Positions 39,832 through 48,100 of a stretch of 58,241 nt of DNA are shown here, piece by piece. Positions within the stretch are counted from its first letter, which is position 1, and the number at the start of each line of letters is the position of its first letter. The position numbers were made by a program, and so were the translations under genes. The notes below the pieces were generated by a model, which had not been told where the DNA came from, made no database searches, and saw only the letters and a list, made by a program, of their open reading frames with translations. This stretch comes from Patescibacteria group bacterium (lineage in GTDB: Bacteria > Patescibacteriota > Patescibacteriia > Magasanikbacterales > GWA2-37-8): positions 1 to 58,241 of the forward strand of contig JAQTYG010000005.1 of the NCBI GenBank assembly GCA_028688375.1. The letters run 5' to 3'.

Positions 39832-40015
39832 CTCGCTTCTCCTTTTTCCGACGCCCCAAAGGGCAGTGGGTGGCGCGGTGGAACGGCCTTTTTGGCACCA
39901 TGCCAAACAATCCGTTCAATCCGCCAAGAGATAAATTGTCCAAGGAACAACTTCGCCTATCCTACCACAAGCCATTAAAAAAGCAAATAAAAAACACGCT
40001 GGCGCATGTTTTTAG

Positions 40016-40097
40016 TGCCCGGGGAGAGAATCGAACTCTCATGGCCGAAGCCGCACGATTTTGAGTCGTGTTCGTCTACCAGTTCCGACACCCGGGC
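40016..40097 (-). tRNA. tRNA-Leu (CAA)
   Basis: GCCCGGG acceptor, CACGA CTCAAAA TCGTG anticodon arm, long variable arm, GAGAG TTCGATT CTCTC; promoter TTGACA-17-TACAAT at 40111-40139. Confidence 0.95.
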
Positions 40098-40263
40098 AAA
40101 ATGTGCTAACATTGTAGTAAATTTACGACATTTTGTCAAATATCACGCGAAATTTAGCCGTATTTGCCCTTTGATTTTATATTGGTTTATGATATAATAT
40201 TGTAAATTGTGGTTTGGCTTTTATTGGATATTGGTCATTGGAATTTGGTCATTCTTGTAATCT

Positions 40264-41028
40264 ATGCCTCCCGTAATATCCATCGTTAATCAAAAAGGCG
40301 GAGTGGGGAAGACCACCACCGCCGTGAATTTGGCCGCCGGTTTGTCAGAAGCCGGCAAGTTTGTTTTGTTGGTTGATTTGGATCCGCAAGGCAACGCCAC
40401 TTCCGGTTTGGGCATTAAACACGAAGAGCTGGAACAGGGTTTGTATCATTCGATCATGGGCGAAGCTCGGGTGCATGACGTGATAAAAAATACGGCGCAC
40501 ACCGGTTTGCGCGTCGCTCCGGCCACGCCGGACTTAGCCGGCGCTAATGTGGAATTGGTGAACGTGGCAGGCCGGGAATCTAAATTGTCCGACGTTCTGG
40601 CCGAAGCCAAACACGCTTATGATTACATTATCATTGATTGCCCGCCCTCGCTCGGCATCTTGACTCTCAACGGTTTGGTGGCGGCCGACCACGTGTTGAT
40701 CCCGGTGCAGGCGGAATATTACGCGCTGGAAGGACTGGGCCAGCTGTTAAAAACCATTGATTTGGTACGCGAAAATATTCGACCCGACTTAAATATCCTT
40801 GGCGCGGTGCTGACCATGTTTGATTCGCGCAATCGTTTGTCAGAAGAAGTTTTGCACGAGCTTTACAAATATTTTCCCAACAATATTTTCCGTTCGGTCA
40901 TCCCGCGCACCGTGCGTTTGGCGGAAGCGCCGAGTTACGGCCAAAGTATTTTTCATTACGAATCAAACGGCAAGGGCGCGAAGGCCTACGAACGCTTGAC
41001 GCGTGAAATATTGGAAAAATTCGTCTAA
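40264..41028 (+). CDS. parA: chromosome partitioning ATPase ParA/Soj
   Basis: NQKGGVGKTTTAVNLAAGL, LVDLDPQGNATSGLG. Confidence 0.96.
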   Translation: MPPVISIVNQKGGVGKTTTAVNLAAGLSEAGKFVLLVDLDPQGNATSGLGIKHEELEQGLYHSIMGEARVHDVIKNTAHTGLRVAPATPDLAGANVELVNVAGRESKLSDVLAEAKHAYDYIIIDCPPSLGILTLNGLVAADHVLIPVQAEYYALEGLGQLLKTIDLVRENIRPDLNILGAVLTMFDSRNRLSEEVLHELYKYFPNNIFRSVIPRTVRLAEAPSYGQSIFHYESNGKGAKAYERLTREILEKFV

Positions 41029-41054
41029 AGATTTTTAAATTAGATTTTTATTTT

Positions 41055-41924
41055 ATGTCACTTGGACGCGGATTGGGGGCGCTGATCTCTTCCACTGCCG
41101 GTCGGCAGAAAAAAGAATATGCCACCGGGAGCGCGAAAGAGCCGGTGTCCGGTCAATCGCCCAAAATTTGGGAGGTCTCGTTGAGCGAAATTACGCCGGC
41201 GCCAAAACAGCCGCGGAAATATTTTAATCCGGAAGAATTGGATGAGTTGGCCGCTTCCATTAAAAAACATGGTATTTTACAACCCCTGCTGTTATCGGAA
41301 AAAGCCAACGGTGGCTATGAAATAATTGCCGGCGAAAGACGCTGGCGCGCCGCCAAATTAGCCGGCCTGGCTATTGTTCCGGCGATTGTTAAACAACTGC
41401 CGGATTTGGAAAAGCTGGAAGTGTCGCTGATTGAAAATATTCAGCGCGCCGATTTGAATTCCATGGAAGAGGCCTGCGCTTATAAACGATTGGTCGATGA
41501 ATTCAACTTAACTCAGCAGGAGGTGGCGGACAAAGTCGGCAAGAGCCGGCCGGCGGTGGCCAATACGATCCGCTTGCTGGAATTGCCTAATGAAGTGCAA
41601 AAAGCGCTGGTGGAAAAGCGAATTAATACCGGCCAGGCGAAGGCGTTGTTATCGCTCCGAAATGAGAAAGAGCAATTGGACGCGCTCTCCTCCATGCTTG
41701 GACAAAAAATTTCCGTGCGCGAATTGGAAAGAGCGGTGCAAAAAATACGGCCTGCCGGGTTTTCTCGCCGGGACCCCAATCTGGCGTATTTGGAAGAAAA
41801 ACTGCGCACCGCGCTTGGCACCAAAGCGAATATCACGCAAAAAGGCGAACAAGGCATAATCGCCATTAATTATTATTCCAAAGAAGAGCTGGCGCGAGTG
41901 ATAAAGAAAATTGTGGGGGAGTAG
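41055..41924 (+). CDS. parB: chromosome partitioning protein ParB/Spo0J
   Basis: QPRKYFN, GILQPLL, IAGERRWRAAKLAGL, LIENIQRADLNSMEEA. Confidence 0.96.
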   Translation: MSLGRGLGALISSTAGRQKKEYATGSAKEPVSGQSPKIWEVSLSEITPAPKQPRKYFNPEELDELAASIKKHGILQPLLLSEKANGGYEIIAGERRWRAAKLAGLAIVPAIVKQLPDLEKLEVSLIENIQRADLNSMEEACAYKRLVDEFNLTQQEVADKVGKSRPAVANTIRLLELPNEVQKALVEKRINTGQAKALLSLRNEKEQLDALSSMLGQKISVRELERAVQKIRPAGFSRRDPNLAYLEEKLRTALGTKANITQKGEQGIIAINYYSKEELARVIKKIVGE

Positions 41925-41939
41925 GGTACAAAAAATAAT

Positions 41940-41972
41940 TAAAAAACCCGGTGTCACGCCGGGTTTTTTTAA
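41940..41972. terminator. bidirectional intrinsic terminator
   Basis: AAAAAACCCGG-tgtca-CGCCGGGTTTTTTT. Confidence 0.8.
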
Positions 41973-41976
41973 ATAA

Positions 41977-43482
41977 TTACTTTTTAATCGGCAGTGGGAA
42001 AATCGCTTTCAGCCAACTTTGTTTTTTGGCGTTCAAACTTTGTTTGATGCGCGATTTAGCCACGTGGGTTTTGACAAATTTTAGCCAATCCGGACTTGGC
42101 CCCTTACGATTTTTATCCACCAGCACCTCCACCACGTCGCCGCTTTTTAGCGGAGTGTCCAAGCTGACCATTTGTTCATTGATTTTTACGCCGTTGCATT
42201 TATTGCCGATATCGGTATGAATGTGGTAGGCAAAATCCACGGCGGTGGCGTTTTCCGGCAGATCAATGACGTCGCCGTTTGGCGTGAAGACAAAAATTCT
42301 ATTTTGGAAAAAATCTATTTTCATTGACTCCAAATCCGACAAATTGTTCAGTACTTCTTGTTGGATTTTGGCCAGCTCCTTGGCCCAGGAAATATCTTTT
42401 CGATCTTTTTTCGCGCCGCCTTTTTTTTCGTCGTAGTGCCAATGCGCCGCCACGCCGTATTCGGCCTCGTCGTGCATTTCCGGCGTGCGGATTTGGAATT
42501 CCACGATGTTGCCGTCGTCGCAAAACACGGTGGTGTGAAGCGATTTGTAGCCGTTGGGCTTGGGTTGGGAAATAAAATCTTTGATGCGCCCCTTCAGCGG
42601 CCGCCAGAGCTGGTGGATAATGCCGAGCGCGGCGTAGCAATCGCCGACATCGGGCACGACAATGCGCAAAGCGACAATGTCGTGAATCTGCGAGGCGTCC
42701 CAATTTTTTTGGATTAGTTTTTGGTATAAACTGTACAACTTTTTCTTGCGGCCGTGGATGTCCAGCACTTTGATGCCGGAATTTTTCATTTCCGTTTTGG
42801 TCGCTTCCATTATCTTGTCCAGATATGGCCCTTCTTCGGCGATAACATTGTCGCGCAGAGCTTTTACTTTTTCGTATTCTTTGGGGTAGACATAGGGAAA
42901 AGACAGATCTTCCAGCAGACCCTTGAACTCGCCCATGCTCAAACGATTGGCAATCGGCGCATAAATTTCCAAACTTTCCATGGCGATGCGGTACTGCTTG
43001 TTCGGCGGTTGCGCGTCCAGCGTGAGTAAGTTGTGAATGCGGTCGGCGAATTTAATAATCATTACCCGGATATCCTCGGCCATGGCGATAAACATCTTGC
43101 GCAAATTTTCCAAATAGCGTTCCACGCCGCGATATTTGATTTTTCCCAATTTGGTGATGCCTTTGACCATTTGCGCCACATCTTTACCGAAATTTTTTTC
43201 AATTTCTTCCAAAGTAACTTGCGTATCTTCCGGCACGTCATGCAAGAGCGCGGCTACAATGATGTTGATATCAATGCGCATTAGGGCGAGAATGTAGGCG
43301 GCGGCCAAGGGGTGGGTGATGTAGGGCTCGCCATTGTAACGAACTTGGCCTTTGTGCGCGTCAGCGGCAAAATCATAAGCCAACCGAATCATTTCAATAT
43401 CGGTTTTGCGGCAATATTTTTTTAATTCCTCCACCAGCGTTTCAATGGTGATGTCCGGCGGAAGGACGATGGTACTTCTCAT
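41977..43482 (-). CDS. RelA/SpoT-family (p)ppGpp synthetase/hydrolase, HD+synthetase+TGS, no ACT domain
   Basis: ALLHDVPEDTQVT, RIVVPDVGDCYAALGIIHQLW, FISQPKPNGYKSLHTTV, C-terminal TGS. Confidence 0.95.
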   Translation of the reverse strand: MRSTIVLPPDITIETLVEELKKYCRKTDIEMIRLAYDFAADAHKGQVRYNGEPYITHPLAAAYILALMRIDINIIVAALLHDVPEDTQVTLEEIEKNFGKDVAQMVKGITKLGKIKYRGVERYLENLRKMFIAMAEDIRVMIIKFADRIHNLLTLDAQPPNKQYRIAMESLEIYAPIANRLSMGEFKGLLEDLSFPYVYPKEYEKVKALRDNVIAEEGPYLDKIMEATKTEMKNSGIKVLDIHGRKKKLYSLYQKLIQKNWDASQIHDIVALRIVVPDVGDCYAALGIIHQLWRPLKGRIKDFISQPKPNGYKSLHTTVFCDDGNIVEFQIRTPEMHDEAEYGVAAHWHYDEKKGGAKKDRKDISWAKELAKIQQEVLNNLSDLESMKIDFFQNRIFVFTPNGDVIDLPENATAVDFAYHIHTDIGNKCNGVKINEQMVSLDTPLKSGDVVEVLVDKNRKGPSPDWLKFVKTHVAKSRIKQSLNAKKQSWLKAIFPLPIKK

Positions 43483-43565
43483 ATATTTTTTTCTGTATGG
43501 CGATATTTTAACACGAAGAACGCTCTGAGGTCAAAAAATGCGGAGATACGGCGGCGGGGGTTGAT

Positions 43566-43601
43566 CCCTCACTCACCCCGCAAATGCGGGGTGAGTGAGG
43601 G
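43566..43601. repeat. perfect 16-bp stem hairpin
   Basis: CCCTCACTCACCCCGC-aaat-GCGGGGTGAGTGAGGG. Confidence 0.95.
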
Positions 43602-43603
43602 AC

Positions 43604-43632
43604 TTGACAAGGGGCCGTTTTTGTGCTATATT
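43604..43632 (+). promoter_or_regulatory. promoter TTGACA-17-TATATT with TGC extension (orphan transcript 1)
   Basis: TTGACAAGGGGCCGTTTTTGTGCTATATT. Confidence 0.8.
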
Positions 43633-43638
43633 ATACGC

Positions 43639-43700
43639 GTGATGCTAAGTCAAACTTAGTGCAACGATCCCCCGCCATGTAAATGACGGGGGATTTGTTT
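43639..43700 (+). ncRNA. candidate short two-hairpin RNA (~60 nt)
   Basis: CTAAGT-caa-ACTTAG then ATCCCCCG...CGGGGGAT-TTGTTT. Confidence 0.5.
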
Positions 43701-43754
43701 ATGAAGGATTTTAGCTGGCTTGACGGGTTTTTTAACCCATGTTAGACTGTTTTT

Positions 43755-43976
43755 GTTGATCCCGGGGCATGAGGTGGTTCTCGCGCCTTGTGGCCCCACA
43801 GCTGTTCATTCGGTACTCTCGCCTGTGAGAGTACGCTGCGGCTTGAGAAGCCCAGAAAAGAGCGGTAGATTCGCCAACCCAAACGATAGCGGTAACCCCC
43901 CGACCGCGAACCATTGGCGAATATACGCGACTCAGACAGGTATCGGGCTCGCTCCATTTGTACGGACGAGCCCTTT
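43755..43976 (+). ncRNA. candidate multi-stem structured RNA (~220 nt)
   Basis: Promoter TTGACG-17-TAGACT at 43720-43748; five hairpins; terminator GGGCTCG...CGAGCCCTTTTT. Confidence 0.6.
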
Positions 43977-44079
43977 TTAATCCGAAAAGATTAATGCTTG
44001 CATCAAAAAAGGCGATATAGTATAATGTTTTCGTCAACTTTCATTCTGGGATAACCCCGGAGAAGGAGGCAAAAGGGCC

Positions 44080-44202
44080 ATGGATGTGATGAACAGGAAG
44101 GCGGCGGGGGCGATGACGGAAGAGCCGAGGGTCCTCGGCGGCGCCGTCGAGAAGATGGCCAAGAGAACGGCGACCTTCATGGTCGACGTGGTCGGGGGCT
44201 AG
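44080..44202 (+). CDS. small protein, 40 aa, strong SD
   Basis: GAGAAGGAGGCAAAAGGGCCATG; MDVMNRKAAGAMTEEPRVLGGAVEKMAKRTATFMVDVVGG; promoter TTGCAT-17-TATAAT just upstream. Confidence 0.6.
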   Translation: MDVMNRKAAGAMTEEPRVLGGAVEKMAKRTATFMVDVVGG

Positions 44203-44320
44203 CGGGAGAAGACCCGAAAGCTCTCAAGAACCGACAACCTCGGAATCGGGGAAACCCCGAAACAGGAGGCACGAACATCGTGTACACGAAGACCCCGATG
44301 TAGTACCAGAGGACAAACGT

Positions 44321-44488
44321 CAGCCCCACGGCGCGAGGGCAGTTCGCGCAAAAAGAGGTTCGCGACCGGGCGAAAAACCCCCAATGCTAGTTGTGGCCTG
44401 AAGATGGCCGCTCCTCGCTTGGCGGCAATCGCCAAACCTGCTCGTTTGGTCAACGAGCGCAGCCCCACGGCGCGAGGACAGTTCGCGC
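44321..44488 (+). ncRNA. stem-loop array bounded by 29-nt direct repeats
   Basis: CAGCCCCACGGCGCGAGG(G/A)CAGTTCGCGC at 44321-44349 and 44460-44488; hairpins GGCC/GGCC, TTGGCG/CGCCAA and GCTCGTT/AACGAGC between. Confidence 0.55.
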
Positions 44489-44497
44489 CTAGTCATT

Positions 44498-44530
44498 GAC
44501 CCCGGACGAAGTCGGGGTCTTTATTTTTTT
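44498..44530 (+). terminator. intrinsic terminator of orphan transcript 3
   Basis: GACCCCG-gacgaagt-CGGGGTC-TTTATTTTTTT. Confidence 0.85.
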
Positions 44531-44661
44531 ATCAACCCATGTTAAGGTAGCCTCTGCGGGCGGCGACCGGTCCTTGGCATCACCATTGGCATTAAGGTTA
44601 ACCTCTCGCCCCCGCAATTAAAAAACCCGCCTCTTCGGCGGGTTTTTTAATTTGTTTTTCA

Positions 44662-44745
44662 CCTTCCTCCTCTTTTAAAGAGGAGGACTGAGGTGGAGTC
44701 AGACTCTCCCCCGGCCCCTCTCTTTAGAAGAGAGGGGAAGCTCGA
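44662..44745. repeat. two abutting half-copies of the ~80-bp palindromic element
   Basis: TTCCTCCTCTTTTAAAGAGGAGGACTGAGGTGGAGTC joined to AGACTCTCCCCCGGCCCCTCTCTTTAGAAGAGAGGGGAAGCTCG. Confidence 0.75.
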
Positions 44746-44749
44746 TTTT

Positions 44750-46972
44750 TTATTTATGTTCCGGGCGTTCCTTATTACTGCAGATCACTTCGCCTTTTTT
44801 GGTAAAGACCATCGGCGCTTTGCACTCAGTACAGCTCTCGCCATTCGGTCGATCCCAGAGAGCGAAGTCGCAGTCCGGATAGCGGTTACAGCCGTAAAAT
44901 ATTTTTCCCCGGCGCGTTTTGCGCTGGATGATTTCACCGGTTCCGCATTTCGGGCATTTCAGATTTAGTTTGATTTCAATATTTTTTATATTCTTGCATT
45001 TCGGATAGGCGGAACAGCTTAAGAACGGACCAAAGCGTCCGACTTTGCGCACCATCGGTTCACCGCACTTGTCGCAGACCTCATTAGTCGGCTCGGCCGC
45101 GGCGGCTTCTTTTTCTCCGCCGATCGGCTTGGTAGTCTTGCATTCCGGGAAACCGGTGCAGGCCAGGAATTTTCCGAAGCGCCCCATTTTTATCACCATT
45201 GGTTTGCCGCACTTCGGGCAGACCTCGTCGGTTTTTTCCTCGGTCAACTCCTTCTTGTTCAGCTCCTTGTCTTTTTTTATCAGGTTTTCTTTAAACGGGC
45301 CGTAAAAATCCGCAATGACCGGGCGCCATTCTTTTTCACCCTCGGCCACCTGGTCGAGCGACTCTTCCATTTGCGCGGTGAATTGATAGTCAACGATATG
45401 GGGAAAATGGGCGACCAATAAATCATTGACCAAATAGGCGATTTCCTTGGGAAACAGTTTCTTTTTGTCGTCGCGCTCTACATAACCGCGGTCTTCAATC
45501 GTAGCGATGGTCGGGGCGTAGGTGGACGGTCGGCCGATGCCGAATTCTTCCAGCGCCTTAACCAAAGTGGCGTCGGAATAGCGTCCCGGCGGTTCGGTAA
45601 AATGTTGTTCCGGCAGAAGTTCGGCGCAATTTACCGCTGTGCCGGTCGTCAGCTTGGGTAAAATATTTTCTTTGGTTTTTTCCGGATATAATTTTAAGAA
45701 ACCCTCAAACACGATATTTTGTCCGTTGGCGCGGAAAGTATAACTGTTGTTTGAAGCGATATCAATCACCGCGTTGTTGATTTTGGCCGGGGCCATTTGC
45801 GAAGCCATTGCTCGGCGCCAAATCAAATCGTAAAGGCGGAATTGGTTTTTATCCAAATGCTGTTCTAAGGAATCCGGGTCGCGTCCGGCTTCTGTCGGCC
45901 GGATGGCTTCGTGCGCTTCTTGGGCGGACTTGCTTTTTGTTTTAAAAATACGCGGTTCGCCGGCGTAATATTTTTCACCGAAATCGGCGCTGATTTTTTC
46001 CCGCGCGTCACCGAGAAATTTCTCCGATAAATTGGTGGAGTCGGTACGCATGTAGGTAATCAAACCGACCGAACCTTCGGCGCCGAGTTCCACGCCTTCG
46101 TAAAGCTGTTGGGCGATGCGCATGGTTTGTTTAGCGGAAAAACCCAAACGATGGTTGGCCTCTTGCTGGAGAGTGGAAGTGGTGAACGGCGCCGAGCTTT
46201 GTCGGCTGGTCTGTTTTTCTTCGGTGTTGGCGACGGTATAAGCCGCGCCGTCAAGCGCTTTTAAAATAGCGTCCACCTGTTCCTTGTTTTTCAAATCCAT
46301 TTTGTCCAGCTTGCCGTCCGGCGTGGCCGTCAGTTTGGCATTGAATTTTTCTTCACCCTGGGCGGAAAAATCACCGCCAACGCTCCAGTATTCTTCCGGC
46401 GTGAATTTTTGGATTTCCCGCTCGCGTTCCACCACCAGACGCACGGCCACTGATTGCACCCGGCCGGCGGACAGACCTTTGGCCACTTTGCGCCAAAGAA
46501 AAGGGGATAATTCATAGCCGACCAAACGGTCCAGCACGCGGCGCGCCTGTTGCGCGTCCACCAATTTCATATCCAAGGCGCGCGGGTGTTCCAAGGCGGT
46601 TTCAATCGCGTTTTTGGTAATTTCATGAAAAGTAATGCGCTCAATTTTTTCCGGATTCAGTCCGAGCACGTTGGACAGATGCCAAGAAATAGCTTCACCT
46701 TCGCGGTCCTCATCAGACGCGAATAAAACTTTGTCGGCTTTGGCGGCGGCGGTTTTTAACTCCTTGACAATTTTTGATTTGTCTCGGCTGACGACATATT
46801 GCGGTTCAAAATTTTTCTCCACATTGATGCCGAGTTTGTGTTTGGGCAAATCGCGAATATGGCCAAAAGAGGACTTTACCACAAAGTCCTTATCTAAAAA
46901 TTTGGTAATGGTCTTGGCTTTAGCCGGAGATTCGACGATTACCAGAGTTTTTACCGCGTGTTTTTTGGTCAT
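44750..46972 (-). CDS. topA: DNA topoisomerase I
   Basis: VIVESPAKAKTI, GLITYMRTDSTNLS, C-terminal CPKCG zinc fingers. Confidence 0.97.
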   Translation of the reverse strand: MTKKHAVKTLVIVESPAKAKTITKFLDKDFVVKSSFGHIRDLPKHKLGINVEKNFEPQYVVSRDKSKIVKELKTAAAKADKVLFASDEDREGEAISWHLSNVLGLNPEKIERITFHEITKNAIETALEHPRALDMKLVDAQQARRVLDRLVGYELSPFLWRKVAKGLSAGRVQSVAVRLVVEREREIQKFTPEEYWSVGGDFSAQGEEKFNAKLTATPDGKLDKMDLKNKEQVDAILKALDGAAYTVANTEEKQTSRQSSAPFTTSTLQQEANHRLGFSAKQTMRIAQQLYEGVELGAEGSVGLITYMRTDSTNLSEKFLGDAREKISADFGEKYYAGEPRIFKTKSKSAQEAHEAIRPTEAGRDPDSLEQHLDKNQFRLYDLIWRRAMASQMAPAKINNAVIDIASNNSYTFRANGQNIVFEGFLKLYPEKTKENILPKLTTGTAVNCAELLPEQHFTEPPGRYSDATLVKALEEFGIGRPSTYAPTIATIEDRGYVERDDKKKLFPKEIAYLVNDLLVAHFPHIVDYQFTAQMEESLDQVAEGEKEWRPVIADFYGPFKENLIKKDKELNKKELTEEKTDEVCPKCGKPMVIKMGRFGKFLACTGFPECKTTKPIGGEKEAAAAEPTNEVCDKCGEPMVRKVGRFGPFLSCSAYPKCKNIKNIEIKLNLKCPKCGTGEIIQRKTRRGKIFYGCNRYPDCDFALWDRPNGESCTECKAPMVFTKKGEVICSNKERPEHK

Positions 46973-47017
46973 AATTGCCACTATATTAATGAAAAAGCTA
47001 GATAATGTCAAGAGCCC

Positions 47018-48100
47018 CTAGCGGGCGGTGATGTATTTCATTCCACCCAGATTTTTTATCAGGCCTTTAATTTCCATCATGGTGAGAGCGCTGCCGGTGG
47101 CGGCGCTATCCAAGCCGATTTGTAAAATAATTTCGTCAATGTGTTTTGGCTCGCGGGTCAGCGCGCCCAGAATTTTTTCTTCAATCGGCAACAGGTTGGC
47201 CAGGGTTTGTTTTTTGGTTTCTTCGGCGATGGCTGCCAAATTAAGCGCCTCTAAAACATCATTCGGTTCGGTAATAAAATGCGCGCCGAATTTTAGTAAA
47301 TTGTTTCCGCCGACGCCGGTCAAAGAAGTGGCTGAATGTGGCACCGCCATCACTTCGCGATTATAATCCAGGGCGACTTTGGCGGTAATCAGCGCGCCTG
47401 ATTCCGTCGGCGCTTCAATCACCAGCGTGCCGAGCGACAGGCCGGCGATGACGCGGTTGCGCGCCGGAAAACTGTATTGCGTGGCCAAAAATCCGGGCGG
47501 ATATTCCGAGATTACGGCCCCGCCTCGGTCAATGATTCTCTCCGCCAGCACCCGATGCGCCGTTGGATAAACCGTGTTCCTGTCCACGCCGGTGCCCAAT
47601 ACGGCCACGGTGATGCCTCCGGCTTTGAGAGTGGCTTCGTGAGCAATGCCGTCCACGCCATAAGCCAGCCCGCTGACAATAACCAGGCCTTGGCGGGCTA
47701 ACGCGCCGGCTAATTCGTCGCATATTTGCCGGCCGTAAGAAGTAACTCGGCGCGTGCCGACGATGGCCAAGGTCGGCTGGTCCGCGCGAGGCATTTGCCC
47801 GCGAATAAATAAAGTATGGGGCGGGTCGGTGATTTGTTTGAGCAGAGGCGGATAGTCCGTTTCATTGATGGAGATAGTGGTGATACCCTCGCGTTCAATA
47901 ATATTTTTGTAATATTCCAATGGGCGCGACTCACGCCAAACGATAAATTCATGAGCTACTTCCGCCTCAATGCCGGCGCGCGCCAAATCTTCAAATTCCG
48001 CCGACCAGATTTTTTCCAAGTCGGAAAAATAAGCCGCCAGTTTTCGGAACCGGCGGTTGTAAAATTTGGGGAAGAAGGCGAGAGCGGGCAAGGTGGACAT
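47018..48100 (-). CDS. dprA: DNA processing protein DprA/Smf
   Basis: AIVGTRRVTSYGRQICDELAGALARQGLVIVSGLAYGVDGIAHEATL. Confidence 0.96.
   Translation of the reverse strand: MSTLPALAFFPKFYNRRFRKLAAYFSDLEKIWSAEFEDLARAGIEAEVAHEFIVWRESRPLEYYKNIIEREGITTISINETDYPPLLKQITDPPHTLFIRGQMPRADQPTLAIVGTRRVTSYGRQICDELAGALARQGLVIVSGLAYGVDGIAHEATLKAGGITVAVLGTGVDRNTVYPTAHRVLAERIIDRGGAVISEYPPGFLATQYSFPARNRVIAGLSLGTLVIEAPTESGALITAKVALDYNREVMAVPHSATSLTGVGGNNLLKFGAHFITEPNDVLEALNLAAIAEETKKQTLANLLPIEEKILGALTREPKHIDEIILQIGLDSAATGSALTMMEIKGLIKNLGGMKYITAR

Follow-up and report, generated by a model that had tools for sequence, protein, structure and literature searches.

The described systems closest to the RNA pair reported here are CopA-CopT and similar plasmid antisense pairs, in which two small structured RNAs likewise use a loop or a 5' tail for contact, possibly with strand exchange afterwards. 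Kolb et al. 2000 (cited in PMC10798244) describe CopA-CopT in their title as an extended kissing complex whose helices lie side by side, and binding of pMV158 RNAII starts at its 5' tail (PMC4485353). The antisense transcripts CJnc180 and CJnc190 of Campylobacter jejuni overlap, and CJnc190 has an mRNA target (PMC8687705). In the CopA-CopT type, both strands of a single DNA stretch are transcribed, one into each partner, and the two are fully complementary from the outset; one partner is an mRNA leader. Functional RNAs may also be built from two pieces, as in two-piece tmRNA, where the pieces are cut from one precursor and work as a base-paired complex.

The island analyzed here fills the gap between relA (5' end at 43482, minus strand) and topA (3' end at 44750, minus strand), positions 43483-44749 of the window, by which we mean the whole stretch of 58,241 nucleotides under analysis. 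With a probability of roughly 0.7, judged from the sequences, we consider this island to be a module of two small non-coding RNAs, RNA A and RNA B, which would be made from separate transcription units and base-pair in trans, with two further units (units 2 and 3) lying outside the module. In contrast to the CopA-CopT type, A and B are separate genes without opposite-strand overlap, and they share only two short complementary segments, whose pairing appears to be kept by selection through compensatory change. Neither RNA is an mRNA leader running into an open reading frame (ORF); each ends in its own terminator, and no plus-strand ORF of at least 40 amino acids lies within either of them. Like CJnc190 and CJnc180, they are neighbouring small non-coding RNAs, one of which possibly controls the other through pairing, and for A and B the base-pairing of one RNA with the other is indicated by covariation; unlike the Campylobacter transcripts, they do not overlap and lie up to 21 kb apart. 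The pairwise covariation and joint loss expected of two-piece functional RNAs such as tmRNA are both observed, whereas A and B differ from two-piece tmRNA in having their own promoters and terminators, and no sequence or structure relation to it was found. The arrangement does not resemble that of a riboswitch or other leader: RNA B runs towards the opposite-strand topA, RNA A runs away from relA, and one pair (L136) has neither gene nearby. Nor does it resemble a type I toxin-antitoxin system, as the longer ORFs are absent from both RNAs and the frame read from the first GTG of RNA A stops after six codons in the window and after two in L072.

We found no convincing protein gene in the relA-topA gap, in agreement with the original prediction, and four ORFs within it have no Pfam match. 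That prediction listed three successive plus-strand promoter-to-terminator units. All three are present with the named promoters and terminators in place, but a fourth plus-strand unit within the same span, RNA B, had been missed, although it is the best conserved part of the island. Promoter-like sites in the region 40000-48000 number 16, about twice the shuffle mean of 8.1 (sd 2.5), while the 20 terminator-like sites exceed their shuffle mean of 15.1 (sd 3.6) by only about 1.4 sd. Compared to dinucleotide shuffles, units 1, 2 and 3 have fold z-scores of -4.69, -3.63 and -4.21, respectively. At the gathering score, an Rfam 15 scan of the whole window returned tRNAs only, which leaves RNA A, RNA B and the other units without a family, and a permissive scan of the gap gave sub-threshold matches only, mostly at hairpins or terminators. 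Upstream of the island, a tRNA-Leu at 40015-40097 was detected by ARAGORN and is missing from the Rfam scan at gathering level; it is followed by ParA- and ParB-like genes at 40264-41924, as read from the ORFs.

RNA A corresponds to unit 1 and spans about 65 nt on the plus strand (43639-43702). Its promoter (43604-43632, plus strand) consists of TTGACA at 43604-43609, a 17-nt spacer ending in TGTGC, and TATATT at 43627-43632; TTGACAA and TG-TA---T are invariant among 18 aligned relatives. The distance to the -10 element predicts a start at 43639. Segment a, GUGAUGCUAAG (43639-43649, plus strand), and segment b, CUUAGUGC (43655-43662, plus strand), are each complementary to a segment of RNA B, and they are followed by a terminator hairpin (43666-43696, plus strand) with a short, weak U tract on its 3' side. 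RNA A is conserved in a subset of relatives, in which a TTGACA-N17-TATAAT-like promoter leads into GTGAT, then a short hairpin and finally a terminator; nucleotides 1, 2, 4 and 5 of the RNA are invariant within the main type. Many matches to the RNA A model, of up to 32 bits, covered the promoter only and were left uncounted; RNA A of genome G033, which scored only 28 bits, was accepted on position and pairing. Directly 5' of the RNA A promoter, at 43565-43602, lies a perfect 18-bp inverted repeat, TCCCTCACTCACCCCGCA, with a 2-nt loop, and short stretches similar to it occur at other sites of the genome.

RNA B begins downstream of a -10-like element, TAAGGT (44543-44548, plus strand), which is preceded by TG and is weaker than that of its relatives. 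A 60-nt hairpin (44556-44615, plus strand; 82.7 bits with a covariance model built from ten sequences) comprises outer stems P1 and P2, an inner CCUU/AAGG stem and an apical loop that carries segment a', CUUGGCAUCAC (44573-44583, plus strand), and segment b', GCAUUAAG (44589-44596, plus strand), the predicted partners of a and b. Directly 3' of the hairpin, an AT-flanked terminator with a 16-bp stem (44616-44652, plus strand), which could also be used by topA on the opposite strand, brings the unit to about 100 nt. In relatives, RNA B has a roughly 10-bp stem enclosing CCTT.GCATCACC...GGCATTAAGG, followed by a terminator, and the stem usually starts 6-7 nt past its -10 element. The stems of RNA B covary on their own account: among 25 sequences, 90.4% of the cells are paired and 84 cells are changed on both sides compared to a shuffled mean of 27.3, with a covariation score of 0.578 against 0.219 for shuffled alignments (0 of 500 reaching it) and at most 0.111 for slid versions. 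These counts lean towards the structure, since a model-fitted alignment was used in place of a MAFFT alignment, in which the 3' arm was misaligned.

The covariance model of RNA B found matches in distant families of the same class, beside topA and/or relA, and these had an RNA A once it was sought. A phylum-wide search of 389 genomes, with filters strict enough to lose weak matches, returned RNA B only within this class. Named matches to an exact pattern of the RNA B core belong to Candidatus Magasanikbacteria and other Patescibacteria; exact-pattern matches outside Patescibacteria (in Bacteroidales, Prevotella, Mucilaginibacter, Brevundimonas, Marinobacter and others) came without a topA or relA match and without RNA A, and were rejected. 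The same applies to five matches of the RNA B model (L120, L122, L125, L126 and L128), which have neither topA nor relA nearby and lack a credible RNA A. One B-like sequence adjoining topA (L118) was excluded from the pairs, as RNA A was not found on its short contig. Likewise, a B-like hairpin adjoining topA at about position 2493 on the minus strand of L163 (G075) has no detected RNA A on its short contig; its a' segment would require a partner beginning with GGGAAUGCAUGG.

Complementarity between the 5' end of RNA A (mostly 10-13 nt) and the apical loop of RNA B was found in 29 genomes, the pairs having been gathered partly via this complementarity and by hand, from at least eight families of a single class, which we take to be ABY1 of GTDB. 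The 11 nt at the 5' end of the window's RNA A, GUGAUGCUAAG, have their complement, CUUGGCAUCAC, in the loop of RNA B. Elsewhere the letters have changed and the two segments are still complementary, as in GUAAUAAUAAGG/CCUUAUUAUUAC (L091), GUGAUGUUAGGG/CCCUAACAUCAC (L099), GUGAUACGGACC/GGUCCGUAUCAC (L104), GUAAUAUAAAGG/CCUUUAUAUUAC (L131) and GUUGAUGAUAGG/CCUAUCAUCAAC (L121). For this helix a, the duplex energy of the first 14 nt of RNA A with RNA B has a mean of -18.2 kcal/mol over the 29 cognate pairs compared to -11.0 kcal/mol (sd 0.58) for swapped partners, and none of 20,000 permutations of partners matched the cognate energy, shared ancestry being ignored in these tests. Among 20 aligned sequences, both sides have changed in 8 of the 12 base pairs of helix a, and its covariation score of 0.423 compares with 0.153 after shuffling (0 of 500) and at most 0.148 after sliding. 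Three pairs are less clear (L105, L102 and L117), having only 7-9 contiguous base pairs, and the cognates of L105 and L102 are not the best-ranked. Segment a starts 4-8 nt (mostly 6-7) past the -10 element in all 29 pairs and therefore represents the predicted 5' end of RNA A.

The second helix, formed by b (CCUUAACGCC-like) and b' (GGCAUUAAGG-like), behaves similarly, with -13.8 for cognate and -9.9 for swapped partners and again none of 20,000 permutations matching. Clear examples are CCCAAUGAC/GUCAUUGGG in L117, AACCUCAAAA/UUUUGGGGUU in L121 and GUUGGCC/GGCCAAC in L104. Within the window's own family, the cognates of helix b are not separated from swapped relatives, and the support comes from other families. 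As shown by comparison between genomes, compensatory changes maintain the predicted complementarity of RNA A and RNA B.

The pairs differ in their genomic arrangement, which offers natural controls for this pairing. topA and relA were each detected in 58 of the 59 genomes of the set, often adjacent to each other, and 40 topA-relA gaps were taken and read. In the window, RNA A and RNA B lie on the same strand, about 900 bases apart, and most genomes with the pair have little sequence between them. In five genomes, however, namely L102, L104 and L105 of family f7 as well as L124 and L127, the two RNAs are encoded on opposite strands, which turns a and a' into direct rather than inverted DNA repeats, and the transcripts are still predicted to pair. 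In G007, RNA B adjoins topA at a contig end that overlaps the start of another contig, and RNA A is found about 21 kb away from it, about 2 kb from relA and with other genes in between; the pairing is kept. It is also kept in L136, where RNA A and RNA B stand together beside a tRNA-like sequence and the fetched 8 kb contain no match to topA or relA. In L161, the two RNAs are about 3 kb apart. The persistence of the pairing across strand flips, a separation of 21 kb and sites away from topA and relA argues that the transcripts, rather than a DNA repeat, account for it.

These arrangements bear on the idea that the complementary stretches are a DNA feature, such as inverted repeats bordering an insertion hotspot or a recombination site, with transcription being incidental. 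The sequence between A and B is indeed variable in the window and in G001 and G016, the last two having sequence unrelated to units 2 and 3 at the same place, and an 11-bp direct repeat, AACCCATGTTA, brackets units 2 and 3 in the window (43734-43744 and 44534-44544). We nevertheless regard a DNA feature as highly improbable, given the direct orientation of a and a' in the five opposite-strand genomes, the covarying stems of RNA B itself, the coincidence of a with the predicted transcription start in every pair and the scarcity of intervening sequence in most genomes.

Presence and absence of the two RNAs go together. Among 39 genomes searched for both, 11 contain both, 27 contain neither and one (G015) contains RNA A only (Fisher 7e-9, ignoring ancestry). 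In this last genome (L082), a deletion apparently joins the start of RNA A to the end of RNA B, and only RNA A was counted. Both RNAs are missing from over half of the wider family's genomes, which indicates that the module is dispensable. This distribution is unexpected for a housekeeping RNA such as the SRP RNA, of which A and B might be thought to be diverged, split halves. The small and large bacterial SRP models gave no match in the island or in seven genomes, the window's genome and six relatives (G000, G001, G003, G006, G010, G014 and G016), while most control genomes were positive, and such a gap could be filled by a split RNA. An SRP-like pattern search yielded one-mismatch matches only, none of them within an SRP-like hairpin; the SRP RNA of Magasanikbacteria is either strongly diverged or absent. 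Yet RNA B has neither a GNRA loop nor an SRP-like conserved internal loop, what is conserved in A and B is their complementarity and not fixed letters, and both are without Rfam match. A descent from a known housekeeping RNA therefore appears to us the most remote of the explanations considered.

Units 2 and 3 have a different standing from RNA A and RNA B. Unit 2 (43720-43978, plus strand) runs from a TTGACG-17-TAGACT promoter (43720-43748) to a terminator at 43945-43978 with its hairpin at 43945-43973. Unit 3 (43998-44527, plus strand) ends in a terminator hairpin at 44498-44519; the proposed TTGCAT-17-TATAAT promoter is found at 43998-44026, but its -35 element matches in 3 of 6 bases and the promoter scan did not list it. 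No DNA relatives of either unit were found in 58 related genomes, one of the same genus included, the sole match being 26 bases at the terminator end in G046; comparison with phages gave nothing and that with plasmids a 32-base match only. Unit 3 is G+C-rich (up to 0.62) and has Shine-Dalgarno-like sites before short ORFs, so that part of it may be coding, or it may represent the remains of a gene; none of its ORFs tested has a Pfam match. It also contains two 29-nt copies of CAGCCCCACGGCGCGAGG.CAGTTCGCGC that are 97% identical, at 44321-44349 and 44460-44488, 139 bases apart.

That all three originally listed units are functional, insulated RNAs is thus doubtful. Units 2 and 3 do fold better than their shuffles and have promoter- and terminator-like ends, which would be in keeping with such RNAs; against this stand the missing relatives even within the genus, the absent or unrelated sequence at the corresponding place in other genomes and the possible coding character of unit 3. 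Function as orphan RNAs accordingly holds up for unit 1 and the unlisted fourth unit, which are conserved in related genomes, covary with each other and have no Rfam match, and is not supported for units 2 and 3. Measured against the refuting conditions set out with the original prediction, units 1 and 4 stand and units 2 and 3 fall. Rather than three retained transcripts, the island is better described as a pair of conserved partner RNAs separated by lineage-specific sequence, and units 2 and 3 look like lineage-specific cargo outside the A/B module. One copy of the direct repeat AACCCATGTTA falls within the promoter region of unit 2 and the other within that of RNA B, as would be seen if an insert had duplicated or captured the RNA B promoter. 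At the place of units 2 and 3, G016 has a G+C-rich ORF of 198 amino acids (L075:339-932), which combines a lipoprotein-like start with a Shine-Dalgarno-like site and gave no Pfam match. In two members of family f6 (L095 and L107), the topA-relA gap contains ORFs with Shine-Dalgarno-like sites in place of A and B. The topA-relA gap seems to be tolerant of insertions.

A model of how the two RNAs of the module might meet can be drawn from their folds. In RNA A and RNA B of the window, the strands that would form the intermolecular helices serve at the same time as inner strands of the local hairpins, and the 5' end of RNA A and the loop of RNA B are both partly unpaired, which suggests a contact between tail and loop followed by strand exchange. 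The partly free 5' end of RNA A would first touch the loop of RNA B, whereupon the inner pairs of both hairpins would be swapped for intermolecular ones, and the outcome would be a compact two-helix complex resembling an extended kissing complex. Helices a and b cannot form one continuous duplex, since the order of a and b in RNA A is parallel to that of a' and b' in RNA B; the simplest geometry would place them side by side. Such a complex would bury the 5' end of RNA A, just as the 5' end of RNA B is buried by its own stem. A nested cofold of the full RNAs A and B of the window predicted no contact, the local hairpins winning over it.

As for the role of the pairing, a dedicated two-RNA complex or a small RNA with its antagonist fits best. 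The letters drift while the complementarity stays, and we take this to mean that the complex, more than the recognition of a fixed set of mRNAs, is what has been selected; most likely, the selected state is the A:B complex itself or the removal of RNA A by RNA B. Under one possible explanation, held tentatively, RNA A would be a small RNA that regulates mRNAs, RNA B would serve as its dedicated antagonist or sponge, and pairing would titrate the regulator, the conserved function lying in the regulated mRNAs; the roles of A and B could also be exchanged. The covariation evidence for pairing, in the energies as well as in the columns of helix a, is consistent with this, as is the strength of the promoters, near consensus for RNA A and weaker for RNA B, with which the amounts of the two RNAs may differ. 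The invariant nucleotides 1, 2, 4 and 5 of RNA A are what a seed might look like, and an adjacent small RNA with its antagonist has a precedent in CJnc190/CJnc180 of Campylobacter (PMC8687705). On the other hand, the seed drifts between families along with RNA B, which a fixed target set would hinder. The other explanation, which we hold just as tentatively, sees RNA A and RNA B as the halves of one bipartite non-coding RNA that would work only as the crossed two-helix intermolecular complex, a clade-specific particle of a kind undescribed in bacteria. We also considered, and discarded, an action of the RNA A sequence GUGAU on the 3' end of 16S rRNA, which reads AUCAC; the match would be lost in genomes that have GUAAU or GUUGAU instead, while RNA B follows the change.

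In the literature covered, which left many journals and all preprints outside, such RNAs were not described in these bacteria, and their novelty is therefore provisional. Magasanikbacteria and their relatives are tiny, mostly uncultured bacteria, and the non-coding RNAs of Patescibacteria seem little explored. Here, two RNA families absent from Rfam were found together, and their intermolecular covariation predicts the contact base by base, with strand flips, relocations and joint loss available as natural controls. More generally, covariation between separate genes can reveal RNA partners. RNA A and RNA B would thus constitute a small RNA-RNA machine from organisms with minimal genomes, one that is directly testable in vitro.
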